NCBI RefSeq assembly: GCF_037975245.1
Contig: NC_092572.1
Location: 20,526,489 to 20,590,488, forward strand
Origin: Apostichopus japonicus
Lineage: Eukaryota; Echinodermata; Holothuroidea; Aspidochirotida; Stichopodidae
DNA: 64,000 nucleotides
Direction: 5' to 3'
The position numbers and the translations under genes were made by a program. Shown here one piece after another: positions 8,030-35,000 of this stretch; the first letter of the stretch is position 1; each line of letters opens with the position of its first letter. The notes under the pieces are model-generated. The model made no database searches. It saw nothing but the letters and a program-made list of their open reading frames with translations, and was not told the DNA's origin.

Positions 8030-11000
8030 GTGAGTTTATCTCCGTTACTGAAACTTACATAAATATAACATATATATTGATAAAAAGATACTTAGTTTAA
8101 TGTTGATTGTATGTATTTCATGACTGGTCGGCATTTACATCCAAGTTTAAGACTCACTTAGTGAGGTGCGATAATTTGCCTCAACAAACGCACTAGACAT
8201 GCCTTAGGCAACTTGGATTAAAACAAAAGTAAAAATGCAAGGAGAAGAAAGAACGTCGTCTTGAATGCCTTGCTCCAATTATACTCACAGGGTTGGAATC
8301 ATTCCCTTATGATTACTTACCATGAATCTGTTAATACACTTGAAACTTGTGGCATGTCAGAAGTCTCTCACTCAGAAGTAATGTATGTGTTATTGTACAT
8401 AGCAAATCTTCCCATTCTAGGAAAAGTTATTAATTTAAACTTAAATACCTGTCTACAAGTTCAACTGAAAACTTAACTTCAATGCAATGAAAAAATTCAC
8501 AACCTGTGTAAAAGTTTGCACGACATATAAGTAACTAGTGCACCTACCCCGCGTTGCTTAAAACATTTACAACATTGTGTAATAAGTGACTACACCGCAT
8601 TGTGTTAACTAAACAACATTGTTGTGTAGTTAGTTTACACTAAGCGGTACAAGTTGGCTAGTTGCACGTGTGTTCGTGTAAATTGTAAAAGTTTAAATAA
8701 ATTTTGAACCACTTGGTTTGAAAACTCATTTTAAAATGTACTTTGACATAAATGGTTGCAAAATACATTGTTTGGATATTTTAGCCACAAATTCATGGGA
8801 ATACGAGAAGGTATCTCGGATCATACGGATCAAACCATTCATTAACAAAAAAGGACACGCTTTCATCTAATATGCTTACAAGGGTAATAAGAAGCTAGTC
8901 ATGACGTTTATGTACTTGTGATATGTCGTTTCAGCTAGTGACGTGCAGGTATCGATGGCTTCGGTAATATTAGAGGAAGGCCAAACGGGAAACATATTTT
9001 GCAATGTGAATGGCATTGGATCGTACTACTGGAGAAAAGGAAACTCTTTTGATAACAGTACTGAAGTTGCTTATATCATCAGTGGCGTTCCTAGTGCAGG
9101 AGATGGATCATATTCCGTAAATGAAAATGGGACTTTGTTCATTAGGAGCGTTGTCCTTGAAGACGAAGGAAAGTATTTTTGTCGAGTCGCTTCAGAGGAG
9201 ACGGATTGCTATGGAGAGGTCATGATTTATGTGCAAGGCAAGTGAGCTTGCTCTCGATACCGGTCAATCGTAATATGAAAAAAAAATGTTTAATCCTAGT
9301 CTCGCTGTAGACCATTTTAATAACGACTTTGTTAGACAGGTCAGCTGGACCCTCTCTTCGTTGTACGTATATATTGTGGATATCATATTTAGCAAAACCA
9401 AAGCAACGGTCTTGAAAAGAGGTGTATTACACGTACTAAAAGGACAACCGATATGAGTGATTGTTCAAAAGTAAATTGGAAAAGTAACAGCATGAAAACC
9501 ACCCATGCGTTTAACGTTATTTAACAATATAGTACATTATCAAAGTTTATCAGAACGAAGGAACAGCTCTCTCACAACAGGTCATTACAGATATGGTATT
9601 GAAAGGGTGCTGCAAAAAATTCAGAAAATTGAAGATATGATAATCAACATACAAAGTATTTAAAATATTTGTTGTTAGTGATACAAATCTTTCCCAAGCA
9701 GTCGATATTGATGCATGAACTTCGGCTAGACATCTTGTGACAGGGGAAAGTATTAAGCCAACGATGTCACTGCCTGTTTACTAACTCTGCACTATAGAAA
9801 TCTAGCTGAGCGGTCAAGCCGTGCGTATCCTGCATACATTTTGTTTATATGTTTATGCATACGTGTATAGTCGCTTGTGATCGAACTTGGATCTGGTTCG
9901 ATGAAAAAGAATCAACGCTCCTCGAAGTAACAGACTAGCAACTTAGCCTTAATTTAGGCAGCCTAAGTTAGCTTACGCGTAAGTAAGGTTTAATACGTTG
10001 AGCTAGATAAAGTGGAGAAAACTACTTCTCCAATAGAAGGCCGAGAATAAAATCCAGTTGAAATTCGTGTATATAGAGCTTAAATCTCGTCTAGTAAACT
10101 ACAAGTTTGTCCATGAACATAACTGTAGCAGGCGACACTTGTCTACATGGCACGTGGACTTCGTTTGTAGGAACGTTAACATACTATATACAGCGTACGA
10201 TACGTTCTGGGTAACAGAACACATAACTAAGTTTACGATGTCATATTTTGCGTGTTAGTTTGTGGCATATATAACGATGCATGTTGTTCAGGAATCGATT
10301 ACGGGTCGGTTGGCCTTTATCATACGACGTTCGGAGTTATTAAGCAGAATTGCTTATGCAGTACAATGAGACTTTATGTTTATTCATGTGTGTAGACAGT
10401 TGCGTAAGGTCATATGCCTCATAGAATGATAATTACATGTTCTTACCAACGGGTAATTACCACTTATTTGGTATAAGACTCTGTTTTGCTAAAATGGCGA
10501 CGTGTGAATACTTGCAGGAGAAGTTTTATTTAACACAACCCTGTATTTTGTTTCTCATCCAGCTTCTCTTCCGAACTTTGTGATCGGTATTGACCGCTGT
10601 TATACAAAACACAGTTGTTCAGTGCTCATCGATTCATCACAGTCTGCGTCTTTGACATGTATCGCAAGAAACGCGTCTTGTTCAATGATCTTAAAGTGGT
10701 TTAATGGATCGACAGAGATAACGAATCACATTAGAAAGAATTCCTCAATTGTCCAAGGAGTAAGAGAAATTTCAAGTACATTAGACGTTGCCCATGGAAA
10801 AAAGGGCTCGCTAACATGCCAAGCAGTAGAACCTAAAGGAAGGAACGACAACGGGAGGTTTGCGAATGTCCAACTCGAAATGCCAGGTAACTGATTCCAT
10901 TACAATGTTCGAATAAAATGTCCGATGACCAATGCAAGGATGATACACGTACTAAATTTTTTTACAGCCGTTATGGGAATACTTATATATTTAACGCACT

Positions 11001-14000
11001 CTTTTATCCTTTGTCCTTTTTGACAGAAGTCCCAGTTGTGACAGATGATAATCGATTGGGAAGTGTAGCTGTAGCATTAATAACTTCAGGAGCTTGTTTA
11101 ATCCTGTTTGTTATTCTTCTCCTGGTCAAAGGTATGGAAATACTAAAACTCAGCGTAATCGTATCATGTTGCGCGACTGTTTAAAAAGTGGAGCTTGTAA
11201 TTCAGAAACAAATAAAATGCATTATTTTAACAGCTTTAATTTGCATTACAGACATAAAACGGAGCGTAAAATAAAGCCCCAGTACGCCTGGTGCTGTTTT
11301 CTAAACGGTTGAGATGTGCAAAGTTGCCCTTCTCCTGAGTAAATGAGAACGTTTAGAATAATATGATCATATTTTGTTACTACTTCTTGTTACAAGAATT
11401 TGTTTTACATCCTCAGATTTTTTTATTTTCTTTCAGACAGGCTCACACGAAGAAAACGAAAATCGAAAGACAAAGTGTAAGTATCCCTGTAATTTCTACG
11501 CGCAAAGTATATCACTTTTTAATGACTCTATGGTGCCCAAACACTATTATTGTTGATTTTGTGCACATTTTTGTTGCACATAGTCAATAGTCAATACAAT
11601 AGTCAATACAATATAATAGTCAACACATAGTCAATCATATTAACATGATAACGAATAAATTGTTCTCTTTGTAGATTTCGCTGAATTCAGCAGCACATTA
11701 CAAGTCTTTTGTTACAGTATATTTCGGACTTTCATTTACCGTAATTCCTTAGAAAAAAGGAATTGAGAAGCACTATCATGTTACTTAATGTGACCGTTAT
11801 AGCGGCCGTTTTTTGTTTTGTGCTTATGAGGTGAATAGTTGTAAAGTAAGGTACATTATCTCTTGTATGTAACGGTCCTTTGCATTACTGTCAGTGTTGG
11901 TGCAAGTAGGGTTTTTGTTTTTTAATATAAAACATTTTTTGTCATTGCAGGCAGGGAGAAGAATTGAAATCGCTAATGGTAGGTTTGTTTAATTTGCCAA
12001 GATCTACATCCGCCCTCTATAGTAAACTTCCACTAAATATTTCAGGATACAAGTACATATTAATTTGTAAAGACTTTCCTCAAAAATACTGAAAATATCC
12101 ATTTATGAAAATAACTCTACTCTTAATTATAGTACACAGACCATGAATTGGGTCATTTAATTAGAAGATAAATAATCATGGTTCATGAAAACTAAGAAAA
12201 CAACACGTAGATTGTCTCAAATATCACGCGTAAAGTGCATTGCCATTAAATCAGGAACATGTGGTATTTGATTGTATATTGTATTATACTGCAATTAATG
12301 TTTTATCAAAGGTAATAACTTACCACTGAAAACCCTAGGGCTGGACTGAGAACTACTATCATCATCAAAATGACATTACGATATCATTCCACACTTTAAA
12401 TATCATGTTACATAATTGACATATGGGTATTAGCCTGTATTGCATTTTCTTATAAATCCTCTAGAAAATGACACACAAAATAAAAAAAGAATATCAAATC
12501 AAGTGCTAAATATCTCTGAAAGCCATGCATTTACATAAAATATTACTTGAATTTAAGAATTGGATTTGCTGCAGCTATATGCGTGTCGTCTACAAAGGAT
12601 GAATGATTCGATGAAGTTAAGTAACATCAACAAATCATTTGTGGACTTATTATTTATATTTGAGAGTGAGAAAAGACGAGCAAACATCTTCAGGAATGGT
12701 TTGCAAGAATATCAGCACAAACAGATATAAAAAAAACGTTTATTTATTTATTTTGGATTTCCTGTCTCATTTCCTCCATCTGTTTGCTTTCATTTCCTCC
12801 ATTATTCCCTTAAGACAAGTGAAGGAGAGGAATTGAGTCTTGGGGGTAATTGGGGAAAAAGTATAGATGAATAACCTCATTCCAAGCGATTCCACATTTA
12901 ATGTTAAGTAGTCTACTGTATAGCATGTTCTGTATGTTCCGTCCTCAGGTGAAAGAGGACAATAACGAAAAACGAATAATGGAGCAAAAGGAAGAAATAT
13001 CCCGTTTAAGGGTGAGTATATTTTGTTCTTCCAAGTAGCAATAAAATGGAGATGTTGCAAATATCATTACAATATTAAACTACATAAGGGGACAATGCAA
13101 ATGATCCTTGCAATATGAAAGCAAAACCAGATCATTTAAAAATTAGAGTCAACTGAAAGTCAACTCATAACTTAATAAGTAACAGGTAAGTAATCAACTA
13201 TCAAATAAACCATGCGAAAAAAGATTCGCGACTGAAGCTATAGGTATATTGATGTAAACATTGGCTTGTGTATCATATATAAATGTTTAGACCCATAATT
13301 AATTATAATAAGATATAGAACATTACACATTACGTCAATAAGGACATGTTATGTTCTGTGCTATATCTAATTTGAACGAAATGAGCGTTTAAGCGGCAGT
13401 GGCCTATTAATGAAACTAACTCTGTACTCTTAATTCTACACATAGACCATTCATTAAACCATTTTATCAGAAGATAAAGATTCCTGGTTCATGGAAACTA
13501 AGAAAGCAACACGTGTATGGTCTCAAACAACACGTTAGAAGTACAGTACTAATCATTAAGCGACATATATGTATTTGATTTGGTAATGTATTATACTGCG
13601 ATGAATGTATATTCATAACTAATACATTACTACTGACAACCCTAGGGCTGGTCTGAGAACTGATATCATCTTCAAACTGACATGACAAGATCATTCCAAA
13701 CTTTTAATATCGTGTTACATATCTGAAATTTTGGTAGATGCCTGCACCAGAATTCATTTTACATCTTCTGGATAATGACACACAAAGACCAACAAAGAAA
13801 ATCAAGTACCAAATATCTCTGAAAGCCATGCCTTAACATAAAATATGACTTGAATTTAAGAACGGAAAGGATTTGCTGCAGCCACATGCGTGTCGTCTAC
13901 AAAAGATCAATGATTCGATGTAGTTAACTAACAACAACAAATCACTTGTAAACTTATTATTTATATCTGAGATTGAGAACAAACGATTAAAGTTCTTTCA

Positions 14001-17000
14001 GTTATATTTTGCGGGAATGAGGGCAAAAATTGATGTGGGTAACATGATTTATTTATTTATTTCGCAATTCCTTCATTATACCTCCATCTGTTTGCTTTCA
14101 TCCCTCCACCAATTCTCCACCGAAGACGAATGAAGCAAGAGGGAATGAGTCAATGGGTAATTAGGGATAATAGTATAGATTTGTTACCTCATTCCAAGCG
14201 ATTCTACATTGTTAGCATACTGTATAGCCTGTTCTGTATGTTCCTTCCTCAGGTGAAAGAGGGCAGTAACGGAACGCAAATAACGGAGCTAAAGGAAGAA
14301 ATATCCAGGTTAAAGGTAAATATAATTCTTCTACCAAGTAGCTATAAATTGGAGATGTTGCAAAAATCATTACAATATATTACTGCATAAGAGGACAATG
14401 CAAATAATCCTTGCATTACACAAGTAAATTCAGAGCATTTATAAAAAGAAGTTAACTGAAAGTAAACTCATACCTTAGTAAGTAACAGCTTAATAATTAA
14501 CATTCAAATAAACCATGCAGAATTAGATTTGCGACTGAAGCTATAGGTATATTGATGTAAATGGTTTTGGTGTATATGTATAATTGTTATAATAAGAGGT
14601 TGTACATTACACATATTGTCAGGTCATCTTCTGTGTCATTTCCACATTTATTGCAACCAAGAAATTTCCAAGTAAGCACCATCCACACTTGTCTGGTCTA
14701 CAAATGTTGAATGATTAAATCACGTTCACTATAAAATGTTTTTTTTTTTACTTTTCATTTTACATGAAAAGTAACAACAGACGAGTAAACGTCTTCCCGA
14801 TATGCATTATAATGTTAGATATGATATATAGATGCATTAACTCATTCCAAGCGATTCCATATTAAATGTTAGATAGTTTAATGAATAACCTGTTCTGGAT
14901 ATTCCATCCACAGAAGACAAAGGAAAATAAAGAGGAACAAATAATGAAGGAAAACAAAGAAATATCCAGATTAAAGGTTAGACTATATCTTCTGAAAGTA
15001 TCTATTAATTAGAATTTCCTTACCGCCATGGAAAAAATAATAATAATAATCATAATAATTTTCAACTTATATAGCGCAATATGCAACGGCTTCTAAGCGC
15101 TTTACAAAACATAATACATAAAACAAAGTCGTAAACATAAATACAAAACCAATACACCTAACAAAGATAAAATTACACAATGCAAAGAAGCGGAAATGTT
15201 AAAAATACAATGTAAACCTATAACAAATATGTGAAAAGCTACTAAAATAACTATATAACTATTTTACAATATACAGAATCAATAATAGCATAAAACACAT
15301 AGCAAATATATATTGCAACATCCTTGGAATATTAAACTGCACACGGGGTCAATACATATTACCATTGCAAGACGCCTCATTTTCTCCATCTGTTTGCTTT
15401 CATTCCCGCCATTCTTCCCCGAAGACAAGTGACGGAAGAGGGAATGTTCGAGGGGGTAATTGTGGTGAAAGTACAGATGGATGATTTCATTCCAAGCAAT
15501 TCCACATTTAATGTTAAATATTCTACTGTATAGCTTGTTCTGGATGTTCCTTCCTCAGACAAAAGAAGAGTATAACGAAAAACAAATAAAGGAGCAAAAG
15601 GAAGAGATATCCAAGTTAAGGGTAAGCATATTTCTTTTTCCAAGTAGCTATAAAATGGAGATGTTGCAACAATTATTATAATATTATACTTCTATACAAA
15701 TGATCCTTGCAATACGCAAGCAAAATCAGAGCATTTATAAAACGAAGTCAACTGAAAGTAAACTCATCACCTAGCAAGTAACAGCTTAATAATTAATTTT
15801 CAAATTAACCTTGAGATTAGAAGATTAGAAGAGATGAATAATTCAATTTCAAGTAAACCTTGAGATTAGAAGCGATTAGAATGCGAAAACATTAACTGAA
15901 TGATACTTTGTAGTTTACTAACAAGAAAACATGTTTTAACTTAGTATTTATATCTGAGACTGAGGACAGGCGACTTAACGTCTTCCAGAAATGTTTTCCA
16001 AGAGTGTCAGCACAAATTGATATGGGAGAAAAGGTTTATTTATTTCGCATCTCCTGCCTCATTTCCTCCATCCTTTAGTTTTGGTTTCTGCCATATTTCC
16101 CTGAAGACAACTGAAGCAGGAGCAATGAGTCGAGGGGTAATTGTGATAAAAGTATAGATGAATGACCTCATTCCAAGTAATACCATATTTATTGTTGAAT
16201 ATTCTACTGTATAGTCTGTTCTGTATGTTCCTTCCTCAGGTGAAAGAGAACAATAACGGAAAACAAATAACGGAGCTAACGGAAGAAATATCCAGCTTAA
16301 GGGTAAGAATATCTCTTCTTCCAAGTAACTATAAAACGGCGATGTTGCAAAAATCATGACAATAGTATACTACATAAGAGGACAATGCAAATGATCCTTG
16401 CAATACGCAAGCAAAATCAGAGCCTTTATAAAACAAAGTCAACTGAAAGTTAATTCATACCTTAGTAAGCAACAGCTTAATAATTAACTTTCAAATAAAC
16501 CATGCAAAAGTAGATTCGCGACTGAAGCTATAGGTATATTGATGAAAACATTGGTTTTGGTGTGTATGTATAACTGTTATAATAAGGGGTAGTAAGTAAC
16601 ACATTTTGTCAGGTCATCTTCCACATTTTATGCAACCAAGAAATTTCCAAGTAAGCACCATCCACACTTGTCTGGTCTACAAATGTTGAATGATTCAATC
16701 ACGTTCACTATAAAATGTTTCGTTTTTTTTTACTTTTCATTTTACATGAAAAGTAACAACAGATGAGTAAACGTCTTCCCGATATGCATTATAATGTTCG
16801 ATATGATATATAGATGCATGAACTCATTCCAAGCGATTCCATATTAAATGTTAGATAGGCAACTTATATAGCGCAATATGCAACGGCTTCAAAGCGCTTT
16901 ACAAAACATAATACATAAAAACAAAGTCGTAAACATAAATACAAGACCAATACACCTAACAAAGATAAAATTACACAATGTAAAGAAGCGGAAATGTTAA

Positions 17001-20000
17001 AAATACAGTGTAAAACTACAACAAATATGTGAAAAGCTACTAAAATAACTATTTTACAATATACAGAATCAATAATAGCATAAAACACATAGCAAATATA
17101 TATTGCAACATCCTTGGAATATTAAACTGCACACGGGGTCAATACATATTACCATTGCAAGACGCCTCATTTCCTCCATCTGTTTGCTTTCCATCCCGCC
17201 ATTCTTTCCTGAAGACAAGTGACGGAATAGGGAATGTTCTAGGGGGTAATTGTGGTAAAATTACAGATGGATTACATCATTCCAAGCGATTCCACATTAA
17301 ATGTTAAATATTCTACTGTATAGCCTGTTCTGGATGTTCCTTCCTCAGGCAAAAGAAGAGTATAACGAAAAACAAATAACGGAGCAAAAGGAAGAGATAT
17401 CCAAGTTAAGGGTAAGCATATTTCTTTTTCCAAGTAGCTATAAAATGGAGATGTTGCAACAATTATTACAATATTATACTTCTATACAAATGATCCTTGC
17501 AATACGCAAGCAATATCAGAGCATTTATAAAACGAAGTCAACTGAGGTAAACTCATTACCTAGCAAGTAACATCTTAATAATTAACTTTCAAATTAACCT
17601 TGAGATTAGAAGATTAGAAGAGATGAATAATTCAATTTCAAGTAAACCTTGAGATTAGAAGCGATTAGAATGCGAAAACATTAACTGAATGATACTTTGA
17701 AGTTTACTAACAAGAAAACATGTTTTAACTTATTACATATATCTGAGAGTGAGGACAGACGACCTTACGTCTTCCAGAAATGTTTTCAAAGAGTGCCAGC
17801 AGAAATTGATATGGGAGAAAAGGTTTATTTATTTCACATCTCCTGCCTCATTTGCTCCATCTGTTCGTTTGGTTTCTTCCCTATTTCCCTGAAGACAACT
17901 AAAGCAAGAGGGAATGAGTCGAGGGGTAATTGTGTTAAAAGTATAGATGAATGACCTCATACCAAGCAATACCACATTTATTGTTGAATATTCTACTGTT
18001 TAGTCGGTTCTGGATGTTACTTCCTCAGGTGAAAGTGGAAAATAACGGAAAACAAATAACAGTTCAAAAAGAAAAAATATCCAGTTTAAGGGTAAGTATA
18101 TTTTTCCTCTAAGTAACTATAAAAGAGATTTCTTTTTTTTAGAATAATTAACTACAAAAGAATGAAAACTATTCTTAAGCAGGCTAAATCAGAGCGTTTA
18201 AAAAAACCTAGTCAAGTGAAAGTAAAATCTCAACTTAGCAAGTAACAGCTTAATAATTAACTTTCAAATAAACCTTGCGAAAAATGATTCGGCACTGAAG
18301 CAATAGGTATATTGATGTAAAAATTGCTTTTGGTGAACAATGTAGAATGGTTAAGATCCATAATTAATTATGATAACATGTAGTACACTACACATTATGT
18401 CCACAAGAGCAGGTTATGTTCTGTACCATTCCACTTTAAATGGCAACCAAGACATTTCCAAATAATCACCACCAACATGTGTGTGGTCTACAGATGATTA
18501 ATGATTAAATCACGTTCACCAAAAAATGGTTCTTGTTTTTACGTTTCATTTGATATGGAAAGTGAAAACCGACAAGAAAACGCCGGGATGCTTTATAATA
18601 TTATATAACATATAGATGGATGAACTCATTCCAAGCGATACCATATTAATTGTTAAATAGTTTAATGAATAGTCTGTTCTGGATACTTCTTCCACAGAGG
18701 ACCAAGGAAAATAAAGGGACAATAAATTATCCTTGCAACACGCAAGCAAAACCAGAGCGTTTAAAAACCGTAGTCAACTGAAAGCAAAATCATAACATAG
18801 AAAATAACAGCTTAGTAACTAACTTTCAAGAAAACCATGCGCTAACCGATTCGCGACTTAAGCTATAGGTGTATATTGATGTAAACATTGGTTTTGTTGT
18901 ACAATGTATAATTGTTAATACACATAATTAATTATGATAACATGTGGTACATTACACATGATGTCTATAAAAGCAGGTAAGTTTCTGTACTATATTTACT
19001 ATTATCGAAATTACCTTTTAAGCCTGGTTGGCCTATTTATGGAAATTAACTCTACTCTTAATTGTAGTAAACAGACCATGCATTAAGTTATGTCATTAGA
19101 AAATAAATAACCATGGTTCATGAAAAGTAGGAAACAACACGTGGATGGTTTAAAATAACACGTTGGTAGTACATTACTATTCATTAAGGAAAATTTGGAA
19201 TTTGATTTGGTAATGTAGTATACTGCAAGTAATGTATTACCATACATAATGAATTACCACTGACAACCCTAGGGCTGGTCTGAGAACTGATATCATCTTC
19301 AAAATTATATGACGAGATCATTCCAAACTTTGAATATATTGTTAAATATCTGACATATGGGTAGTTGTCTGCACTACATTTTCTTTCTAAATCTTCTGGA
19401 CAATGACAAACAAAGATCAAAAAAGAAAATCTAATCAAATTCCAAATTTCTCTGAAAGCCATGCCTTTACAAAAAATATGACTTGCATTTAAGAACGGAA
19501 TGGATTTGCTACAGCTACAATTATGTCGTCTACAAAGGATGAATGATTTACATCAACAAAAGCATGTTATCTTATTATCTATATCTGAGAGTGAGAACAG
19601 ACGACTAAATGTCTTTCCGGAATGTTTGCGCGAGTGTCAGCACACATTGATATGGGAAAATACGTTTATTTATTTATTTATTTCGCATCTCCTGCCTCAT
19701 TGTCTTCATATGTTTGCTTTCATTTCCTCTATTCTTCCCTGAAGACAAGTGAAGGGAGAGGAAATGAGTCGAGGGGTAATTGGGGATAAACGTATAGATG
19801 GATAACCTCATTCCAATCGATTCCACATTTAATGTTAGTATACTGTATAGCCTGTTCTGGATGTTCCTTCCTCAGGCGAAAGAGGATAATAACGAAAAAC
19901 AAATAACGGAGCAAAAGGAAGAAATATCCAGGTTGAAAGTAAGTGTATTTCTTCTACCAAGTAGCTATAAATTGGAGATATTGCACAAATGATTAAAATA

Positions 20001-23000
20001 TTATTCTGCAAAAGGAGACATTAAAAATGAACTTGCAATTTGCAAACAAAATCAGAGCATTTCTTAACGAAGTCAACTGAAAGTGTACTCGTAATTTAGC
20101 AAGTAACAGCTTAATTATTAACTTTCAAATAAACCATTCGAACAAAGATTCGTGACTAAAGGTATAGGTATATTGTTGTAAACATTGGTTTTAGTGTACA
20201 ATTTATAATTGTTTAGATCCATAATTAGTTAGTTGTGGTACATTACACATTATGCCCATATTAGCAGGTTGTGTTCTGTACCATTTCCACTTCTAATGGC
20301 AACCACCGGATTTCAAGTAAGCACCACCAACACGTGTGTGGTCTACAAATGATGAACGATTAAATCACGTTCACTAAAAACATGTTTCTTTTTTTTACTT
20401 TTCGTTTTACATGAACAGTGAGACCAGACGAAGAAACGTCTTCCCAGAATGCATTATAATATTAGATATCATATGTAGATGGATGAACTCATTGCACACG
20501 ATTTCATATGAATTGTTAAATAGTCCAATGAATACCCTGTTTTCGATATTACTTCCACAGACGACAAAGGAAAATAAAGAAGAACAAATAATGAAGGAAG
20601 GCAAAGAAATATCCAGATTGACGGTTAGATTATGTCTTCTTCCGATAACTAGAAAGTAATTTCCTTACCGCCATGGAGAAAATGCAAGCATCTTTAGAAT
20701 ATTATACTGCATGATGGGACGATGCAAATGATACTTACAATAGACAAGCAAAATCAGAGTATTTAATAATTTTAAAATTATAACATATATAGTAAGTAAC
20801 AGCTTTGTAATTTACTTTCAAGTAAACCATGAAATGATTCGCGACTGAAGCTAAAGGTGTCTTGATGAAAAAATTGGTTTTGGTGTAATTCATTATATCC
20901 ATAATTAATTATGATAACATATAGTACATTACAAATTATGTCCATAGCAGCAGGTTGTGTTCTGTTCCATTTCCACTTTTAATGGCAACCAATTAATTCC
21001 AAGTAAGCACCACCCACATGTGTGTGGTCTACAAATGATGATCGATTAAATCACGTTTACTAAAAAAAATGGTTTTAACTTCCCTTTATATGTGAAAGTG
21101 AGAACAGACGAGTAAACGTCTTCCCGGAATGCATTATAATGTTACATATAATATATAGATAGATAGCACTTATTCCAAGCGAATTCATATTAAATATTTA
21201 AAAGTCTAATGAATAGCTTGTTCTGGATATTCCTTCCACAGACGACAAAGGAAAATAAAGAAGAACAAATAACGAAGCAAGACAAAGAAATATCCAGATT
21301 AAAGGTTAGAATATATCTTCCTCCAAATAACAATAAAATTGGAATTTCCTTACCGCCATGGAGAAAATGCAAAATCCGTAGACTATTATACTGCCTAAGT
21401 ACATTGGGACAATGCAAATGATCCTTTCAATAGACAAGCAACTTCAGACCGCTTCAACAAAGTAGTCAACTGAAAGTAAAATCATAACTCAGTAGTAAGT
21501 AACAGCTTTGTTTTAACTTTCAAGTAATCCATGAGAGAAAAGATTCGCGACTGAAATGATTAACGATCATATCTGACATATAAGTGGGGCCCTTTCTAGA
21601 AGGTTTCTAAATCTTCTGGACAATAACACTAAAAGCTCAAAACTAAAATATCAAATACCAAATGTTTCAGAAAGCCATGCTTCTAAATAAACTATAACTT
21701 TTATCTAAAAACGGAATGGAGTTCAATAGATAACGGTTGCTGCATAGGATGAATGATTAGATGTAGTACACTAAACAATGTTAAAGTTACTTTATACAAT
21801 TGAGAGTAAGAACAGACGACATAACGCCTTCCAGGAATACATTTATCAATTGAGGAATATCTTCAGGGCGGCTGCAAGTGAAGTGAAAGCTTTTGCGAAA
21901 TAAATTAATTCCATGTTATTAAAAGACAAACGTCATCAAGCACTACATATACAAATTCATTATGCAACACAACTAATGTGTTATCTTAAATCAACGTAAA
22001 TTTATTTTATTATATTAGGTGATTATATTACCACATTATTTACATTGACAGGGAATAGTGGTAAACAGAGATAGAGAAATTGCCGAAATGAAAGTAAGTA
22101 CTCACGATTTTAATGACACCTTTTTAGTACTCAAGAAAAAGGTTAATGGTATCATGCTTTAAGCAATGATAGAAAACCGAAAGAAAACAGAACGGGCGTC
22201 ATACGTAGCTGGATAAATCTCACTTTGAATGAATAACTTCACTTTATTTAATCCTTCTTTGTGTTGTAACTGTTAACTGCAAATGTTTTACTAGTAGCCA
22301 TCTTTATCTCATTTTGAATTTTATAATAGTATAACCTACGGAAGCTTTCTTTACTATGTATTTTCTTCTAACATGGAAAGTTGAGAACATAGATAAAGAA
22401 ATGAGCGAAGAGAATTTAACATTGTCGGTTTGAGAGTAAAATCTTACTGTTTCGATGCCACATTTAAGAATTCGTGAAAAGCTTTAGGATATCATATCGT
22501 TTGCATTGAAGCAAACCGAAAGACCCAAAGACGAATGATATACGTTACCGATTACATTTCTTTATAATGAGGTCAAATGAAACTGTTATTCTCAGAGTGT
22601 CATTTTGGACACTTATCACCTCGACGGTGTTTTCAAAAGTTAACTTTCTTGTATGAATTTGGATATGTACACTTGTGTTAAACATAAACAGTTAATCTTT
22701 TGTGATATAATTACATGTAAATCATTCAGGCAGATATTACACATTTTCGAAGTCATCCCTGCTTGGGGAGCTAAGTACGCTTTGGTTTTCAAGAAGTTCC
22801 GCACAAATTTATATGGGAGGGGATACTTTTTTGCTGACTGCCTGCCAATTGTCCTCCCTCTATTCGTTCATTTCCATGTATCATTCCCTGTATACAGCTG
22901 AAGGAAGAGGTAGGGTGCCGAGGGGGTAATAGGGGATAAAGGTATAGTTGGATGAACTCCTTCCAAGCGATTCCACATGAAATGTTACGAAGTGTAGTTA

Positions 23001-26000
23001 ATAGCTTGTTTTTCATGTTCATTCCACAGGCAAAAATGGAGAATAACGAAAGACAAATAATCAGGCAAAAAGAACAAATATCCAACTTTAAGGTTAGTAT
23101 ATTTCTTCTTCCAAATAGCTACAAATAGGATTTCTTAAATCGCTATGGAGAAAATGCAGCATCCCTGGTGAATTAACCGAAAGATGGGACAATGCAAATG
23201 ATCCTTGCAAAACGAAAGAAAATCAGAGCGTTTTAACATCGAAGTTAACTGAAAGTCAAATCATAACTTAGTAACAACTAAATAATTAACTTTCAAATTA
23301 AACATGCTCAAAAAAAATTAAATTAATGATTCGATGTATTGTACTATTAGAAAAGTCTTTGTTAACTTATTATTAATATCTGAGAGTGAGAAGCGACGAC
23401 TAACGTCTTCCAGGAATGTTTTGCAAGAGTGTCAGCGCAAACTGATATGGGAGAGGACGTTTATTTATTAGCATTTCCTGCCTCATTTCCTGCCCCACTT
23501 TCTCCATCTGTTCGTTTTGGTTTCCTCCCTATTTCCCTGAAGACAACTGAAGCAAGAGGGAATGAGTCGAGGGAGTAATTGTGGTAAAAGTATAGATGAA
23601 TTACCTCATTCCAAGCAATTCCACATTTAATGTTAAGTATACTGTCTAGCCTGTTCTGGATGATACTTCCTCAGGTGAAAGAAGAGAATAACGAAACACA
23701 AATAACCGAGCTAAAAGGAGAAATATCCAGCTTAAGGGTAAGTTTATTTCTCCATCCATGTAGCTATAAAATGGAATTATTTTTCTTTTAGAACATTAAA
23801 CTACATAAGACGGACAATGCAAATGATCCTTACGCAAAAAATATCAAAGCGTTAAAGAAAACGTAGTCAACTATAAGAAAAAATTATAACTGAGCAAGTA
23901 CCGGTAACAGCTTAATAATTAACTTTCAAATAAACCATGCGACAAAAGATTCTCGACTCAAACAATAGGTATATTGATGTAAGTATCACCCGATACTCAT
24001 AGCTAGTACAGTAACTACTGTTCATGTTCCACGACCGTGCATCAGTAGCTACTGCGCTGTGTTCGTAACACGGTAACATGTGTTACAGGGGGCACAGTAA
24101 TTACTGCAAAGCTGTTACACGTTCCCATGTAAGACGAAGAACTGCGCGACTGGACAAGGAGTCTATGAGTATGACGATGGGGTACTAGTAGTAGTGCTGT
24201 AGTAGCACTGCCGAGTCATTATGCTGGTAAACTATTACTATATAAAGGCCTAAGTTAGACGTGGAACTACCCATAAGGCTAATCTAGGTTCCCCCTCGCC
24301 CACATTAGGTCCCATTTTGTGTATCTGTTTTGTATCTATTTGAGACTAACACACACTCACCTGTCCGTGAAGAATGTTTCCATCAAATAGATCTACCAAT
24401 ACGATTGGAGAAAAGTTAGGATACCATCTGAATCTCGCATGCAGTATAAATTAACCGCCGCAGTGTATCGGTTACGTGTTGTGCCAGCGCCGACCATGCA
24501 CTCCGTATTGTACGGCTTGGGAGTAATATTCGTTACCCAGCCGCCGCGCATTTTCACCTTTCGGACTCGTAGTTCAACGTGTAAAAGTTTTGCAGTAATT
24601 ACTGTAACACATGTTACCGTGTTGCGAACACAGCGCAGTAGTTACTGATGCACAGTTGTGGAACATGAACAGTAGTTACTGTACTAGCTATGAGTATCGG
24701 GTGTAAGTATTGGTTTTGGTGTACAATTTATAATTGTTTAGACCCATATTTATGATAACGTGTAGTACATTACAAATGATGTCCATAAGAGCAGGTTATG
24801 TTCTGTACGATTTCCACTTTTATTGGCAAAACAAAAAAAGTTCCAAATAAGCACAACCAACATGTGTGTGGTCTACAAATGATGATCGATTAAATCACGT
24901 TTAATTAAAATTTATTGTTTTTAACTTTCCTTTATATATCAACGTGAAAACAGACGAGTAAACGTCTACCTGGAGTGCATTTCAATGTTAGATATCATAT
25001 ATTGATAGATTGCACTCATTCCAAGTGATTTCATATTAAATATTTAATAGTCTAATGAATAACCTGTTCTGGATATTCCTTCCACAGACGACAAAGGAAA
25101 CTAAAGACAAAGGAATATCAGGGTTAAAGGTTAGAATATATCTTTTCCCAAATAGCTATAAAATGGAATTTCCTAACAGCCATGGAGAAAATGCAAAAAT
25201 CCTAAGAATATTATACTGCCTAAGGGAACAATGCAAATGATCCTTTTAATAGGCAAGCAAAATCAGACCTTGTTATTAAACGTAGTCAACTGAAAGCAAA
25301 ATCAAAACAATGTAGTAAGTAACAGCTTTGTAAATAAATTTCAAGTAACCTATGCGAGAAAAAAGGATTTGCGACTGAAGCTATAGGTATATTGATTATG
25401 CCCTGAATATAGCTGAAGGAAGAGGGAGCGTGCCGAGGTAGTAATTGGGAAAATCGCATAGATGGGTGAATTCCGTCGAAGCGATTCCACATGAAATGGT
25501 AAGTAGTCTAGTGAATAGCTTGTTCTTGATGTTCATTCCACAGATAAAAACGAAGAATAACGAAAGACAAATAGGCAAGCAAGAAGAAGAAATATCCAAC
25601 TTAAAGGTTAGTATATTTATTCTTCCAAATAGCTATAAAATGGAACTTCCTTACCGCTAAGGAGAAAATTACATAACGCCTTCCAGGAATGAATTAAACA
25701 ATTGAGGAATATTTTCAGGTTGGCTGCAAGTGAAGTAAATAAATTCGCCGAATAAATCAATTCCATATTATTACACGATACAGGCTTCATCAAATACTGA
25801 ATATATAAAATCGTTATGCAGCACAATTAATGTGTTATCTTAAATCATGCATGCAACTTAAATTTATTTTGTTATATTAAGTGATTATATTACCACATGA
25901 TTTACATTAACAGGGAAAAATAGTAAACAGAGATAGAGAAATTGCCGAAATGAAAGTAAGTATTTACCATTTTTATGACATATTTTTAGTACTCATGAAA

Positions 26001-29000
26001 AAGGTTGATGGTATCATGCCTTAAGCAATGAAAGTAAACCGAAAGTAAAAGGGAGGACGTCATACGTAACTGGATGAATCTCATTTTGAATGAATTACTT
26101 CACTTTATTTTATTTTATTTTATTCTTCTTTTCGCTCTGTTGTAGCAGTAAACTGCAAACGTTTTCCAAGTAGCGATCATTATCTTATTTTGAATTTTAT
26201 AGTAGTATAACCTACGGAAGCTTTCTTTACTATGCATTTCTTCTAACATGGAAAACTGAAAACAAAGATAAAGAAATAAGCAAAGAAAAGTTAACATTGT
26301 CGGTTTGAAAGTGAATCTCGCTGTTTCGATGGCACATTTATAATTCATTGGAAGCTTTAGGATATCATGTTTTGCATTGAGAGCAAACCGGAAGAACCTA
26401 AAACTTATGTAATACGTAACCGATTCAATTTCTTCTTTAATGAGTTCAAGTACAATTGTTGTTCTCAGAGTGTCATTTTGGACACTTATTCAGTGTTTTA
26501 AAAGTTAACTTTCTTGTATGAAATTTGCATAGGTACACTTATGTTACACTTTAGCAGCTCAACCTTTATATTATATATATAAATGTAAATCATTAAGGGG
26601 CAGATATTACACATTTTTGAAGTCCTCCCTGCTTGAGGAGCCACGTACGTCTTGGTTTTTCAAGAATGTCCTCACGAATTTATATACGAGGATACTTTTT
26701 GCGAACTTCCTGCCTAATTTCATCCCTCCATTCGTTTTCATTCCATGTATTATGCCTTGAATATAGCTGAAGGAAGAGGGAGCGTGCCGAGCTGGTAATT
26801 GGGAATAAACGTATAGATAGATGAACTTCTTCCAAGCGATTCCACATAAAGTGTTAAGTAGTCTAGTGAATAGCATGTTGTTGATGTTTATTCCACAGGC
26901 ACAAATGGAGAATAACGAAAGACAAATAGGCAAGCAAGAAGAAGAAATATCCAACTTAAAGGTTAGTATATTTCTTCTTCCAAATAGCTATAAAATGGAA
27001 TTTCCTTAACGCTAAGGAAAAAATGCAGCATGTAATTAAAATGCAAAGATGGGACAATGCAAATCCTTCCAATACCAAAGAAATACAGAGCGTTTTAAAA
27101 TCGATGTTAACTGAAAGTAAAATCATAACTGAGTAACTACTAAATAATTAACTTTCAAATAAAACATTCGTAAAAGAAAAATTAATGAACTATTCAAAGT
27201 AGTTCACTATAGCAAAGACACATTCAAGTCTTATAATCTTTTTCTTTTCTTTTTCTCTTGCGAATGTTTTGCAAGAGTGTCAGCACAAATTCGAATTTCC
27301 TGCCTCATTGCCTCCCTCTTTTCGCATTGCCCCCCCCCCCCCCTCTTCCCTGAAGATAGCTAAAGGGAGAGGAAATGAGTCTCGGGGGTAATTGTTGTAA
27401 AATTATCATGCATACAACGTTAACGTATCTGGTTGTATAAGGTCACTATATTACCACATGATTTATATTGACATGGAGAAGTGAAACACAAAAATATTGA
27501 AATTGCCGGAATGAAAGAAAGTACTCACAATTTCAATGACACGTTTTTAGTACTCAAGAAAATGTTTAAGGTATCATTCTTTAAGCAATGAAAGTAAACT
27601 GAAAGAAATAGGACGGACGTCATACGTAACTGGATAAATTTCATTTTGGAATGAATTATATTGCTGTACTTTATTCTACTTTTGGGTCTGGTGTAAGAGT
27701 TAACTGTAAACGTTTTGCAAGTAGCCATCAATACCTTAGTTTGAATGTTAGCTTTGCCTACTATGCATTTTCTTCTAATATGGACAAGTTGAAAAACGTT
27801 AAGTTAATGAAACCGTTATCCTCAATGTCATTTTGGACACTTATCACTTCGACGGTGTTTTCAATAGTTTACTTTCTTGTTTTAAGTATGCATAGGTACA
27901 CTTATGTTACACTTCAACAGCTCAATCGTTTGTGATGTATATAAATGTAAATCATTAGGAGGTTTATATTACACATTAATGAAGACATCCCCGGCTTGGG
28001 GAGCCAAGTACGCTTTGGTTTTGTATGAGTGTCTGCACAAATTTATATGTGAGGAAACATTTATTGATTCTTCGCACTTCTTGCCCAATTTTATCCATTA
28101 AATTCGTTTTGATTACATCTATCATTCCCTGAAGACAGCTGAAAGAAGAGGGACGGTACCGAAGGGTAATTAGGGATATAATATATAGATGATTGAACTC
28201 ATTCCAAGCGATTCCATATTAAATAGTCTAGTGAATAACCTGTTCTGGATATTCCTTCCACAGATGATAAAGGCAAAAAAAGAAGAACAAATAATGAATG
28301 AAGGCAAAGAAATATCCAGATTAAAGGTTAGACCATAGCTTCTTCCAAGTAGCTATAAAATGGAATTTCCTTACCGCCATGGAGAAAATACAACACTCTA
28401 GTGAATTATTCTGCATGAGGGGACAATTTAAATGATCCTTGCAATACTCAAGCAAAATCAGTGCGTTAAAAAATGGTAGACGGCTGAAAGTAAAATCATA
28501 ACTTAATAAGCAATAGCTTTATAGTTAACTTTCAAATAATTTATAAGAAAGGGATTCGCGACTGAAGCTGTATATATTTATGTAAAATTTGATTTTGGTT
28601 TACAATGGATAATTGCTCAGACCCATAATTAATTAAGATAAGATGTAGAACAGTACACATTACTTCCATAAGAGCAAGTTATGTTCTGTACCATTTCCAC
28701 TTTTAAGTGCAGCCAATAGATTTTCAAGCAAGCACCACCCACATGTGTGTTGTCTACACATGATTAACAAATAAATCAGGTTCACTAAACGATGAAAGGG
28801 ATAACAGGCGAGTAAACGTCTTCCCAGGATGCGTTTTGATATTATATATAATATATAGATGAATCAAGTCATTCCAAGCGAATCATATTCAATGTTAAAT
28901 AGTCTAGTCAATAATCTGTTATTGATATTCCATCCACAGATGACAGAGGCAAATAAAGAAGAACAAATAATGAAGAAAGACAAAGAAATATCTCGATTAA

Positions 29001-32000
29001 AGGTTGGTAAATATCTTCTTCCAAGTAGCTATAAAATGGTATTTCCTAACCACCGTGGAGAAAAACCAACAATCCTTTGAATACTATACTGTATGAAGGA
29101 ATAATGTAAACGATTCTTGTAATACAATAGCAAAAACCGGGCGTCTGAAAAACGAAGTTATATAAAAGTAAAATCAAAACTTTGTAACAACTTTAAAATA
29201 AAACAGGTGCTTGATGTACAATGTATAATAGTTTAGACCAATCATGACTTCTGATACCTTTTAAGACAAAACACATTACTTCCAGAAGTGCAGGTTATGT
29301 TCTGTACCATTTCTACTGTTAATGAAATGACCATTTAAGCCTTAGTAGCCCATTTATGAAAATCACTCTAGTACAAGTGCATTACCATTAATAAAAGGAC
29401 CTATGGTATTTGATTTGGTAATGTATCATAATGCATGTAATGTATCAGTAAAGAATAACCAGTGACAACCATAGAATGATATCATCTTCGAAATGACATG
29501 ACAAGATCATTTTAAACTTTGATAATAAAGGTGCATATCTAAGATATGGGTGGATGCCTGCACTAACATTTTCTTAAATCTTCTGGACAGTGACAAACAA
29601 AGATCAAAAGAAGAAAATCAAAATCAAATCCCAACATTATCAGAAAGCCATGCTTTAAAATAAACTATGATTATACTTAACAACGGAATGGAGTTGAAAA
29701 GATAACGGTTGCTGCAAAGAATAAATGATTCATATAGCTCACTGAAAATCTGTTAATTTATTTCGTTATATTTGAGAGTAAGAAGAGACAACTAAACGAC
29801 CATGAATGAAATAACAATTTCAGGAATAAATTTCCGAGTGGCTACAATTGAAGTTAAGGAATATGCCGAAAAAATTAATTCCATAAAATTACAAGACACC
29901 AGCTTCATCAAATACTGAAGTATATATTCTTTGTTCCTGATATCCCAAGCACAGTGTTTGAGCGTTGCCATAGAGACGGTAGAAGTCATATTATTGTGCG
30001 GTGTATTTCGCACAAGGACAAAATTACGATCGTGAAAGCCAGATGAACTGCTCTATATAGAAATCAACCTTTCTTATCGTCGGTGATTTGACGAGAATTA
30101 GTCTCATAGAGAAGAAGAAATGGATCGAAAAGTCATCGAAAAGTAAATGAGGGCATCAATTAAGATTTTGTGGAAAATGGACAGGCCTTTCGGGGAAGGC
30201 ACATCAGCTTTAAGCACTTAAGTTTTTTAACACACTTTTTCTAATCTGGACGATCATTGGATTGTTCTTGTTGGGTTTTGCGGATTAAAAAACTGCAAGT
30301 ACTTAGTTTTGTTCTGTTCATTTGATTCTAGAGATACAAAACTTAATTTTGCTAGGTTTTCCGCTCACTCAGCTTGAGCAGTTAGGTGTTTTTGTTATTC
30401 GTTTTCCTTACATCCGTCTCCTTTTTCGGTAATGTAAAGTCGTACATTTTGTAAGTAGCATTTGTACTTTCTACATTCTCATATACATGGTTTACCTGTA
30501 TTATGGTTACATTTCTGTGTACGTTGTCGCGGAATCAACGCTGCTTTAGTGAATTTAACTTTACTTATCAATCCCACGTTACCTTATAATGTAATATGGC
30601 GTTTTTAAAGGGTTGTTCTTTTAAGTTACTTGGTCTCACAGAAAACGTCGGCAGAACTTTGGTTTTCTTCATAATCAAAAGCGTGATACTATTACATACA
30701 AGAGACACATAGCATCTATAGGGACGAGAAGTATTGGGGAAATGAATGGGGTGACCAGGTGCTTTTCAATCACGGGTCATCCGCTTGTCGTGGTACTTCT
30801 ATTTCGTAATTCACGCACTTGCATCTGTTATATTTCGGATATATTATGTCTTTGGTATGCCACGTAACGTTACTTTAGTACGTCTTTAAGAGCCAAATTC
30901 AGATATCCTGTCTGTCGTAAATTCACTCAGTCCATTATCATTTGGGGATTTCAACTTCGTCTTTAAAATTAGCGCTAGACAAGGCAGGGGAAATCCCATG
31001 ACCATTTTTTTTTATACTAAGGGTAATGCTTAGATGTAATGAATATTCATGCTCTAATTGATATATATCGTGAAGAAATCCATGGATTTTTAACAGCATT
31101 TTACTTATTTTTACTGAGGACATTCACTGTATGTTAGGTTTCTTTCTTATCTCTTACTCACCAGTAACTCGTAATGTATTTCTCCCGGCCTTTGTTCTGA
31201 ACACTCCATTGTTCAATTAGACCTTAAATTTTAAAGCAAATTAGAGGTGCGGGCTTCTGGAAATTCAATAACTTTTTACTTAACGTTCCTGAGTACAACA
31301 TACTTATTAATAACATAGTGTCAGTGGACTGTCAGGAAACTTACCCGTTACATTCCTCACTTCAGTGGGAATTGGTTAATATCTCCATTCGGAGTGCCAC
31401 TAATGAGGTGCATTACTGAATAACTGAATTAAATAAAGTACAGCCTTAGAACACGACAATGCACTATCCAACTCTGTCGACACTTTTAGAAGACATAAAA
31501 ACGCCAGAAATAACCTGTAAACATTATATGACTTTAAAATGCATGCTGTACTTTGATTCGTTCGAGAGCCAGATCGGTCCAACAAGACGAAAAAACACTG
31601 TTTTTCCTTAAGTCCGAAAAATACGAAATATACACCACAATATTATTCAGAAACTTACATTTCAAAGTGGTAGTGATGTGACAGAGGGTCCGGGAGATCT
31701 ACGAAAATTAAGGAACTTTCATAAACATTTCCATACAAGTGAGATTATTAAAATGAATATATTAGTATTTGTGAAAAGGAAACTAAAATTGTTCAGTATG
31801 CCGACGACACAACAATTTTAACATTTCCCACTCGTTTCATGGGAGAAGCCTGCCTTTCTCAGCAACTTCAAATTGTCTTGGACCCTTGGTCCCGCTTCTG
31901 TGTGGGAATTACTTTTTTAAATTGTAGTTACAGCTTATTTTGCTTCAATTATTTACCTAAGTTGTCGCGCTTAAATATTCTTAATAGGTGGGCCCAACGT

Positions 32001-35000
32001 GACTTTACACCAATTGCGTGAATTTACTTTACCAGACACTGCCTGATCCTCCACAGTATTTTGTTAGACAACTTGAAACGTGTATTTACAACTTTGTGTG
32101 GTCAGCAAAGCCGGACAAGTGAAACCCACCACTGTAATCTGTCCTATATCTGAAGAGAGTCACTCATGTGTCTTCTTTTATATGCTATTTTAAGTGTAAT
32201 TGGGTAAGGATGCATCTCGAGGACAGTAATGCAACTTGGAATCATGTTTTGACCTTCATCTTTCAAAGTATGGTAAACCATTGCCATTTAAGTGTAATTT
32301 TTATAGTGAAGACATTAACATCAACAACATCTTTTAAAATGATGTATGCAAGGCTTGGGCATTCTACGATTTTGAGGAGCCAAATTTGGCCTTCCGACAT
32401 GAGATTGTTTGGAATAGTTTTTATATTAAATTATAATAATTTTGGATGCAAGTTATTGCTAAGACATTCATATAACTGTCTTCTTTTTAACATGAAGAGT
32501 TACATTTTTACCAAGAAACTGAATTTTAAGATTCCGATGCTAAACGAAAACCTTTATTATTGATAATACTGTTTTATATGTCTACGTTGTTGTTTATTGA
32601 TCCATATAGTGAAAGTGCATTCTTTTGCTAACTGACATACGTTTTCATTGCAGGCTGATATTGAATCTAAAATGTACGAAGTAGCTGAGCCAGTGAGTAC
32701 CAGGGAGTAAACACAACTCTGGGGGCACATATTTTTCGAAACCTATGCAAACTGACAACTTCTAAATAGTGTAATTGAATTTGGCAACTTTAGGCAACCT
32801 GATTACATATCTCAGCGGTTGCATGAATTTTATAGAAATCAAGAACAAAATTTTAATTGGTATCTTGAGAACCTACAATGTGTGGGCGCGCCTTACATAG
32901 TAAATATTAAAATGCTGAAAATATGGGGCTTTACACATGTTGTTACCATAACTGACATATACATATACAAATATAAATATATCAATTTGATTTTTACAAA
33001 TGACTGTCGCGCGGTGTTTATTTTGTTCATGCTTTGAATACAGGATTGTTAATATACATTTCCCACATGATAATTTATTACCTGTATTATTTAGATTTAA
33101 AAAACGATTAAGAAATAAGCAAGGTCCAATGCTCTAGGCGAAATGTAAATTTAATGTTTACTTTGATTTTAAGGTTTTTAAAGTAAAGGAAAGCTTTAGA
33201 CATTGTATGTTATATTTATAAGTGCCATCTACCATTTTAATTGTCAAATAACATAATTCAACATAGTATTTTTAATTGGAAAACTGTACATTATTTACTT
33301 CATTTATTTTTGTCGATACACGTTCTTTCCTTACAGGAGGAACTAAAGCGGAAAACACCTAAAAAACCAAAATTGTCGGTGAGAACTAACTTTTCATTTC
33401 TGCTGACTGTTCTATATACAAGCTAAAGTTCCATAGTAGGATAATCCAGATTAATAGATATACATAATCCCTTAAAATTAAATCGTGCTGCCTGTATCGG
33501 TTTAATTTAGTCACATATTTTAGTCTATATAGAGATTTTGCTTATAACATTATTTATTATTCATACTTATAACTTGAGTTCTTCCACTGGCGTCCAAACG
33601 CCGACAAAGGGAGAAAATTTGGGATCATAACTCAACACTTTTAACTTATAAATTTTTCCAAGTAATTGTCTAAGACGACTCCTTCAGATTCTAACTTCAT
33701 CGCCAGCTGAAGCCGTAGTCAGCCTGACAACGCATAAGTCACTCCGTTTATACCCTTCTTGTACCTTGACACTTTACTGGTTCTGGCTATTTTAGAGACG
33801 ATAGAAACGAAAAAGCAAACAACTCCTTGAAAAGTGCAATGATCCATTGCTTCCGTTACAGGCTACTGGAGATGAAGCTTGTCTGAAAACACTCCACTTT
33901 TAAAGAAAGGGGAACAAAAACTAGCACGCAATTCAAAACAGACCCATTGAAATAAGCAAGGGCCTGAGTTTTAGGTAAAATATACATTCAATTGATTTGA
34001 GTTTAGGCTTGAACGTCAAACACACCTGCACTCGCCCAATCTTGTATGATATCGTATATTTTAGTGACATCATTCTTTTAAACGGTTTCCAAATCACAGT
34101 ATTCAGCGCAGTGTGTATTCTCATATCTGTGCAATATTGACTTCTTTATTTTTTTCGATGCACTTTCTTTCCCTGACAGGTGGAAGAACCACAACAGAAG
34201 GTAAGAAATGACTTTTCATTAATGCTGACTGTTCTGTTTACCAACTAAGATTTCATAGTGGGATAATCCAGATAAAAAGAATACATAATCCTTTAAAATA
34301 AATTCGTGTTGACTGTATCGGGTTAATTTAGTCACAACTTGTAGCCTATATATAGAGTTGCTTATAACATTATTTGTTATTCATACTTTAAATTGAGTTC
34401 TTCCACTGGCGTCGAAACGCCGACAAAGGAAGAAAAGTTGGAATCATAGCTCAACACATTTAACTTACATATTATTTGAATACTTGAATATTGGAATAAG
34501 CAAGGTCCTGAGCTCTAGGCAAAATATAAATTCAATTTATTTGAATGTAAGCTGGAACGTCAAACACACCTGCACTCGCCGAATCTGGTATTTTAGTGAT
34601 ATCATTAAGTTAAACGGATTTCAAGCCACAGTATTCAGCGTAGTGTGTATTCTCAAATCTGTGCAATATTGACTTCTTTATTTTTTTCGATGCACTTTCT
34701 TTCCCTGACAGGTGGAAGAACCACAACAGAAGGTAAGAAATGACTTTTCATTAATGCTGACTGTTCTGTTTACCAACTAAGATTTCATAGTGGGATAATC
34801 CAGATAAAAAGAATACATAATCCTTTAAAATAAATTCGTGTTGACTGTTTCGGGTTAATTTAGTCACATATTTTAGTCTATATAGAGACTTTGCTTATAA
34901 CATTATTTATTATTCATACTTATAACTTGAGCGGAAAACACCTAAAAAACCAAAATTGTCGGTAAGAACTAACTTTTCATTTCTGCTGACTGTTCTATAT

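Follow-up and report, generated by a model that had tools for sequence, protein, structure and literature searches.

Chicken BG genes, which belong to the butyrophilin family, encode an immunoglobulin (Ig) V domain, one transmembrane (TM) exon and 13-36 mostly 21-nucleotide (nt) heptad exons, and their tail has been interpreted as an alpha-helical coiled coil with an exon number that varies between genes (PMC4046983, PMC5938342). Intron read-through is frequent in these genes, which form a multigene family with hybrid genes (PMC4046983, PMC5938342); the first codon of the heptad exons is split, and a few of these exons are 18 or 24 nt long (PMC5938342). Zipper protein, with a BG-like tail, is a reported regulator of the actin-myosin interaction, and mammalian butyrophilins (BTN) have two extracellular Ig-like domains, a TM segment, a few heptad repeats and typically a B30.2 domain (PMC4046983, PMC5938342). 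Here we describe a predicted Ig receptor gene of the sea cucumber Apostichopus japonicus, contained in a window of 64,000 nt, i.e., the whole stretch of DNA that was analyzed (assembly GCF_037975245.1, contig NC_092572.1, positions 20,526,489 to 20,590,488 of the forward strand; coordinates below count from its first letter). The tail of this receptor is probably a helical rod of modular build, which serves to pair or scaffold the receptor and takes its length from the number of exons, with different exons amplified in different genes of the family. The original prediction for this window held that no Ig receptor of such a design had been described, which is wrong, since chicken BG genes have it. 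The heptad-exon Ig receptor is thus not new as a design; what is new is a separate echinoderm family.

Splice sites and phase, assessed with home-made splice scores, join 36 exons on the + strand between 7975 and 40746 into a single gene with one open frame of 755 or 757 amino acids (aa), the length being determined by the choice between two stop exons. The locus would encode one type I membrane receptor with a long intracellular tail. Exon 1 (7975-8029) carries the ATG and the signal peptide MDKALFLLILTTLLACIS and ends in phase 1. It is followed by a V-set Ig domain (Ig1) in exon 2 (8935-9237, phase 1-1; PF07686, 37.2 bits with a cut-off of 26), whose 3' intron requires a GC donor. Exon 3 (10563-10886) encodes a second Ig-like domain (Ig2) that scores 17.5 bits against Pfam Ig_3, below the cut-off of 30, and that lies within the same open frame and has 26 more matches in the genome. 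The TM segment, recognized by its hydrophobicity, is encoded by exon 4 (11027-11131, phase 1-1), and a basic juxtamembrane stretch by the polybasic exon 5 (40 nt, 11437-11476, phase 1 to 2) and exon 6 (28 nt, 11951-11978, phase 2 to 0). The phases at the 3' ends of exons 1-6 are 1, 1, 1, 1, 2 and 0, with phase 0 arrived at exactly via the 40- and 28-nt exons, and they lead into the heptad array in one open frame, in agreement with the matching phases that had been predicted. Matches of Ig1 among PDB sequences were a mixture of Ig proteins, and an AlphaFold model of Ig1 alone had a mean pLDDT (predicted local distance difference test) of 51.5, too low for a fold search.

The heptad array occupies 12949-29002 and contains 19 intact exons, 16 of 63 nt and three of 42 nt, bounded by AG and GT, in phase 0 on both sides and free of stops; all of them lie where the original prediction had placed them. 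The 63-nt exons start with VKEDNNEKRIMEQKEEISRLR at 12949-13011 and continue at 14253-14315, 14914-14976, 15559-15621, 16240-16302, 17349-17411, 18029-18091, 19876-19938, 20561-20623, 21242-21304, 23030-23092, 23675-23737, 25544-25606, 26899-26961, 28264-28326 and 28940-29002, the last of the array. Two of the 42-nt exons, GIVVNRDREIAEMK (22052-22093) and GKIVNRDREIAEMK (25914-25955), represent a second exon type. The third, TTKETKDKGISGLK (25088-25129), aligns as a 63-nt unit minus exactly 21 nt, and because the gap was the same in the alignments with each of three 63-nt exons, an insertion or deletion (indel) of one heptad was tolerated. Two copies are broken: the one at 18631-18727 retains the acceptor and has a truncated exon, and the one at 27415-27536, of the second 42-nt type, has lost both the AG acceptor and the GT donor. 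All these features are on the + strand. An intronic insertion at 23987-24703, with 102-nt inverted ends that are 96% complementary and 513 nt apart, is perhaps a small DNA transposon.

A splice-bounded repeat search that was blind to the motif and covered + strand bases 1-45000 returned all 16 63-nt exons and eight 21-nt exons located further downstream, together with four 69-nt by-products of a 1584-bp repeat; the three 42-nt exons were not singled out. On the antisense strand of the whole window, the search gave by-products only, six of 45 nt and five of 57 nt. A frame-free search for DNA likeness over 12000-33000 found 21 exon-bearing copies, namely the 19 intact and the two broken ones, and the remnant of a flank at 16829-16858. 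Frame, heptad length and both splice sites are thus retained in 19 of 21 exon-bearing copies. All 16 63-nt exons are free of indels, vs. 10 of 16 upstream and none of 16 downstream 63-nt intron windows, a comparison that is partly circular and favors the exons, which were picked for their 63-nt length to the exclusion of other lengths. Within the 63-nt units, I10, I17 and S18 are kept in 16/16 and L20 in 15/16, the remaining unit having F. A DNA search with an 872-bp unit, which skips very common words, gave 18 matches, all within the window locus, making it unlikely that the array is a dispersed repeat. Queried with a single 21-aa unit, the genome yielded nine copies at E-values up to 10, again all in the window locus.

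The array is not the 3' end of the gene. Further exons, all on the + strand, comprise ADIESKMYEVAEP (39 nt, 32654-32692) and EELKRKTPKKPKLS (42 nt, 33337-33378), both in phase 0-0, then eight 21-nt exons within 34180-39488 (starting at 34180, 34712, 35764, 36296, 37348, 37880, 38933 and 39468; seven encode VEEPQQK and one VGELQQM) and an alternative last coding exon, either A (40030-40059, GTRVSVVAF followed by the stop) or B (40711-40746, DDAMDFESGSQ followed by the stop). Between 33341 and 39516, 1584-bp tandem repeats bear the VEEPQQK exons and are mostly 98.5-100% identical per 200 bases. Given this near-identity the exon amplification looks recent, and the repeats look like very recent exon duplication or copy-number variation. 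A tandem repeat of 30 bp, with seven copies at 40050-40261, starts at the stop of exon A.

The tail has a hydrophobic period of 3.5 residues, and 0/2000 shuffles were as strong. All 16 of the 63-nt units of the window gene have hydrophobic residues at positions 10, 17 and 20, giving three hydrophobic core positions out of six per unit. The 63-nt peptides of other genes are hydrophobic in 62-78% at positions 6, 10, 13 and 20, in 33% at position 3 and in 20% at position 17. With heptad phases numbered from the start of each exon, phases 3 and 6 together have a pooled hydrophobic sum of 1.12 in the window exons (n = 16). For peptides from other genes, the sum is 1.08 (45 distinct ones of 63 nt) and 1.05 (20 distinct ones of 42 nt); in each of the three cases it is reached by 0/5000 shuffles. 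For the four 42-nt peptides of the window, one of which is a chance call at 21434, 60/5000 shuffles reach the sum. Of the 15 loci that have a 63-nt exon, 11 are best described by phases 3 and 6 as the a/d pair, and an identical register in all genes can therefore be rejected. Phase 6 is occupied in all 15 loci (0.33 to 1.0), and phase 3 is empty in four. As read from these predicted peptides, one stripe keeps a constant position with respect to the exon border in all 15 loci and the partner stripe is variable; any exon could thus succeed another. Among PDB sequences, the spliced tail had a sole match at an E-value threshold of 0.001, annotated as ‘Tail needle protein gp26’ (E 7.7e-05), which we take to be a coiled coil.

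The search for paralogues covered the host genome, and the matches were found mostly on C12 and C19. Including the window, there were 38 matches to Ig1 and 27 to Ig2, and 26 of the 27 Ig2 matches have an Ig1 match at most 4 kb upstream. Going by these matches, the receptor gene is a member of an echinoderm family of about 27 genes, with Ig1 exons up to 55% identical to that of the window. A query with the TM plus juxtamembrane part gave no clear paralogue in the genome. Elsewhere, dense Ig-domain matches at C23:14821698-15133953, some about 660 bp apart around 14.849-14.854 Mb, may correspond to a tandem array of Ig exons.

We took 21 paralogous loci, extending 10 kb from Ig2 in 18 of them and 35, 30 and 30 kb in the other three. 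Their tail exons were located by reading the stretches of the loci and not by unit similarity, and the exon counts refer to candidates. In the group at 6.4-6.8 Mb of C12, a basic 40-nt exon of phase 1 to 2 is present in 6/6 loci, as is a phase 1-1 TM exon, the phase of which was a requirement of the search. Downstream of the juxtamembrane part the paralogues have phase-0 exons rich in E and K. With the final non-overlapping filter, 74 of 119 sense phase-0 candidates in the paralogous loci are multiples of 21 nt. The corresponding counts were 5/36 when the antisense strands of the 22 loci were scanned and 0/14 in control stretches; of the latter, L003 and L028 are also parts of loci. Some calls in the final count are probably due to chance, such as that at 21434-21475 of the window and the exons inside Ig2 of L019-L021. 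The filter was altered during the work, its final version being set after weak acceptors had been noticed in L020-L022. Counts from the earlier versions, which include overlapping alternatives, were 30/45 sense vs. 0/6 antisense in 14 loci and 3/7 vs. 0/1 in seven later loci (strict first filter), and 37/88 vs. 2/6 in 16 loci (relaxed filter). At least two same-strand phase-0 multiples of 21 nt are found in 13 of 22 Ig2 loci, among them C12:14619 with two candidates of unlike length that are perhaps due to chance; the antisense count is 1/22 (C12:6615).

The array is not unique to the window gene, since paralogues have tail exons too, which differ from each other and from those of the window. 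For two paralogues a strict repeat-family finder came back empty, and a profile built from the window exons produced no convincing match in them. The tail exon ELAKTKDQEIANKDQELTKLK and two variants are common to L001, L005 and L008 (83-97% of the self score). Arrays are present in five genes, each with its own unit type. Besides the window gene, these are C12:14127 (L022) with 15 63-nt exons of the DTKAELEATVQTLNGEKKAIQ kind and one of 54 nt, C12:14085 (L021) with nine 63-nt exons of the GTTEKLQTTEGKLIDEQKAHQ kind, C12:14419 (L013) with five 63-nt exons of one type, the KSEQEVSSKERRLTERETNLM kind, and C12:14033 (L019) with seven 42-nt exons of the LKDGELTTLQDKFK kind. In the three largest arrays, the mean identity of 63-nt peptides within a gene is 0.53 for the window, 0.85 for C12:14085 and 0.78 for C12:14127; it is 0.16 to 0.18 between genes. 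At C12:6367 the exons are mutually unlike (0.35), and one is in common with C12:6506 (0.86). This pattern suggests that some genes hold an old mixed set of exons and that others have amplified (or homogenized) one seed. At L026 (C2:2184300-2194299, reverse strand), a related gene, we found two 69-nt candidate exons, IASQSQ.ESND.AATSQDSTSEK, in place of heptad exons; they are a candidate for another kind of repeated tail exon.

The window gene resembles chicken BG genes in its extracellular V-set Ig domain and in a tail of many whole-heptad exons (the 19 of 63 or 42 nt and the eight of 21 nt). It differs in having a second Ig-like exon where BG has one Ig domain, and in exons that are all in phase 0 and mostly of 63 nt, whereas those of BG are of 21 nt with a split codon. 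BG genes are located in the chicken major histocompatibility complex, whereas the present family is echinoderm, with unit types that differ between genes. Since two defining features of BG were looked for and are lacking, we do not class the window gene as a BG gene, though it works like one. With BTN it has two Ig-like domains, a TM segment and heptads in common; BTN has only a few heptads, typically followed by B30.2. We looked for the latter in the longest + strand open reading frame (ORF) between 29 and 41 kb (141 aa), the one scanned out of seven listed ORFs, and it has no Pfam match. Fibrillar collagen and the PEVK region of titin also have arrays of symmetric exons that are multiples of a protein repeat, and copy number or splicing can set their length; these are, however, not Ig receptors with a coiled-coil tail. 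In the open-access full-text literature we found no description of an echinoderm counterpart or of the sea cucumber family of about 27 genes. Papers that did come up concern an Ig-NACHT receptor and nemertean immunity, and the word ‘immunoglobulin’ is absent from the main text of a report on another sea cucumber genome (PMC13228809).

The receptor would thus consist of a signal peptide, a V-set Ig domain, a second Ig-like domain, a TM segment and a long intracellular tail preceded by a polybasic juxtamembrane stretch. The exon structure and its phases, the register, the 3.5-residue period, the recurrence in the family and the stop-free frame are read directly from the DNA. Most of the tail would be encoded by phase-0 exons, each spanning one, two or three complete heptads (7, 14 or 21 residues), and the stripe would lie at a fixed distance from the exon border. 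Duplication, loss or skipping of an exon, or its junction with one of another type, would consequently leave both frame and stripe intact. The modular, register-preserving tail of the original prediction is thereby supported, all the more by the paralogues and by the one-heptad gap at 25088-25129. We infer that receptor chains pair through the tail as an alpha-helical coiled coil, which, by analogy with chicken BG, would hold the paired chains to cytoskeletal or adaptor partners. It would be about 56 nm long if all 378 residues were helical, as calculated from the rise per residue of a helix. Over evolutionary time, duplication and loss of exons would set the length of the tail, which splicing may also adjust in individual transcripts.

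Several observations weigh against such a coiled-coil tail, and they partly favor its chief rival, a charged single alpha-helix or disordered spacer that forms no coiled coil and in which exon number tunes length only. Positions 3, 6 and 13 of the window units are mostly polar (E, N, Q), i.e., half of the core positions, and in this respect the description of the tail as ‘only partly coiled-coil-like’ was accurate for the window gene. In the remaining 4 of 15 loci, phases 6 and 2 fit best as the a/d pair, and C12:14085 has no hydrophobic residue at all in phase 3. The tail is free of proline and has 83 acidic and 91 basic residues out of 378. Pairs of K/R to E/D at i+4 number 29, vs. 19.9 in shuffles (reached by 13/2000), an enrichment that also fits a single charged helix. 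The reverse pairs, E/D to K/R at i+4, are not enriched (19 vs. 19.8), however, and charge pairs at i+3 are below the shuffles in both orders (11 and 17 vs. about 20). The hydrophobic peak at exactly 3.5 residues and the invariably hydrophobic positions 10, 17 and 20 likewise speak against a single helix. The register found in 11/15 loci and the K to E pairs thus weaken the coiled-coil explanation slightly and strengthen the single helix slightly, the latter retaining an appreciable, though clearly minor, share of the probability. The dN/dS (ratio of non-synonymous to synonymous substitution rates) pooled over the 16 63-nt exons is 0.81, vs. 0.56 and 0.59 in two shifted frames, indicating that the amino-acid sequence is overall under little constraint and that most residues are free. 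Within the 10 kb examined, no candidate with a length divisible by 21 nt was found at four C19 loci and one C2 locus, whose tails may begin further on or differ. C12:6660, 14476, 14302 and 13995 have one such candidate each, and C12:14619 has one of 42 nt and one of 84 nt. Exons of 54 nt (18 residues; four in L020) and 33 nt (11 residues; L001 and L005) also occur, so that the whole number of heptads, valid for the window array, is to be rejected as a family-wide law; lengths of 18 and 11 residues are compatible with a coiled coil as 7+11 and 11. No Pfam family scored above its cut-off in the tail. ITIM-like (immunoreceptor tyrosine-based inhibitory motif), YxxL/I and YxN motifs are absent from it with either end exon, which favors a mechanical or scaffolding role over signaling through ITIM or ITAM (the corresponding activation motif).

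Other explanations concern the nature of the locus rather than the fold of the tail. The array might be a separate non-Ig gene for a cytosolic coiled-coil protein that lies downstream of an Ig-TM gene by chance. The join between the two parts is a prediction from genomic DNA, and the paralogues, with Ig1 up to 55% identical, have tail units that are mostly unlike (mean identity 0.12-0.19). Such a chance neighborhood is improbable in view of its repetition, two or more sense candidates of the expected length being found in 13/22 Ig2 loci vs. 1/22 antisense, and of the exact attainment of phase 0 via the 40- and 28-nt exons of the window gene. Slightly less probable still is a decaying or non-functional array, in which tandem exon repeats are kept by chance and the product ends earlier. 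The dN/dS of 0.81, the two broken copies and the remnant would fit decay, but 19/21 copies keep frame, heptad length and both splice sites amid adjoining introns rich in indels, and the exon ELAKTKDQEIANKDQELTKLK recurs in three paralogues. We consider it equally doubtful that the family and vertebrate butyrophilin/BG descend from a common deuterostome ancestor in which the heptad-exon tail was already present: the order of the parts is alike (V-set Ig, TM, exon-quantized heptad tail), but the quanta are of 63/42 nt vs. 21 nt and the arrays vary from gene to gene.

The remainder of the window contains, at 44336-44746 on the minus strand, another Ig-domain frame (Pfam Ig_3, 33.4 bits) that faces the receptor gene. 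Also on the minus strand are a frame for an EamA-type transporter (52255-53508, 418 aa unbroken, 74.8 bits) and a reverse-transcriptase fragment (58215-58730, PF00078, 30.9 bits). A tandem repeat with periods of 48, 97 and 145 bp is located at 60955-61390. In the genome, pieces of COX1 are found at C29:14745-31219, in a second contig besides C35, and represent either extra mitochondrial copies or a nuclear insert. The COX1 of C35 has a 517-residue frame that stays open under genetic codes 4, 5 and 9, but the conserved motif STNHKDIGTLY is obtained only under code 9, that of echinoderms and flatworms, in which AAA is read as Asn; this agrees with a sea cucumber host.

A wider interpretation, which we put forward tentatively and hold to be rather less likely than not to be correct in full, is that sea cucumbers have evolved a BG-like system independently. 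It would comprise a large family of Ig receptors with interchangeable, register-locked coiled-coil exons, several genes having amplified units of their own; the tails would possibly act as private zippers in which each pairs with its own kind, and tail length, adjusted through copy number or splicing, could serve as a ruler. For chicken BG it is an open question why an Ig receptor needs heptad exons by the dozen and in variable numbers. An echinoderm family with the logic of BG, with quanta of 63/42 nt, another phase and arrays that differ between genes, would amount to a replicate of the BG experiment and would show that length, frame and a single hydrophobic stripe are kept and that most other residues can vary.

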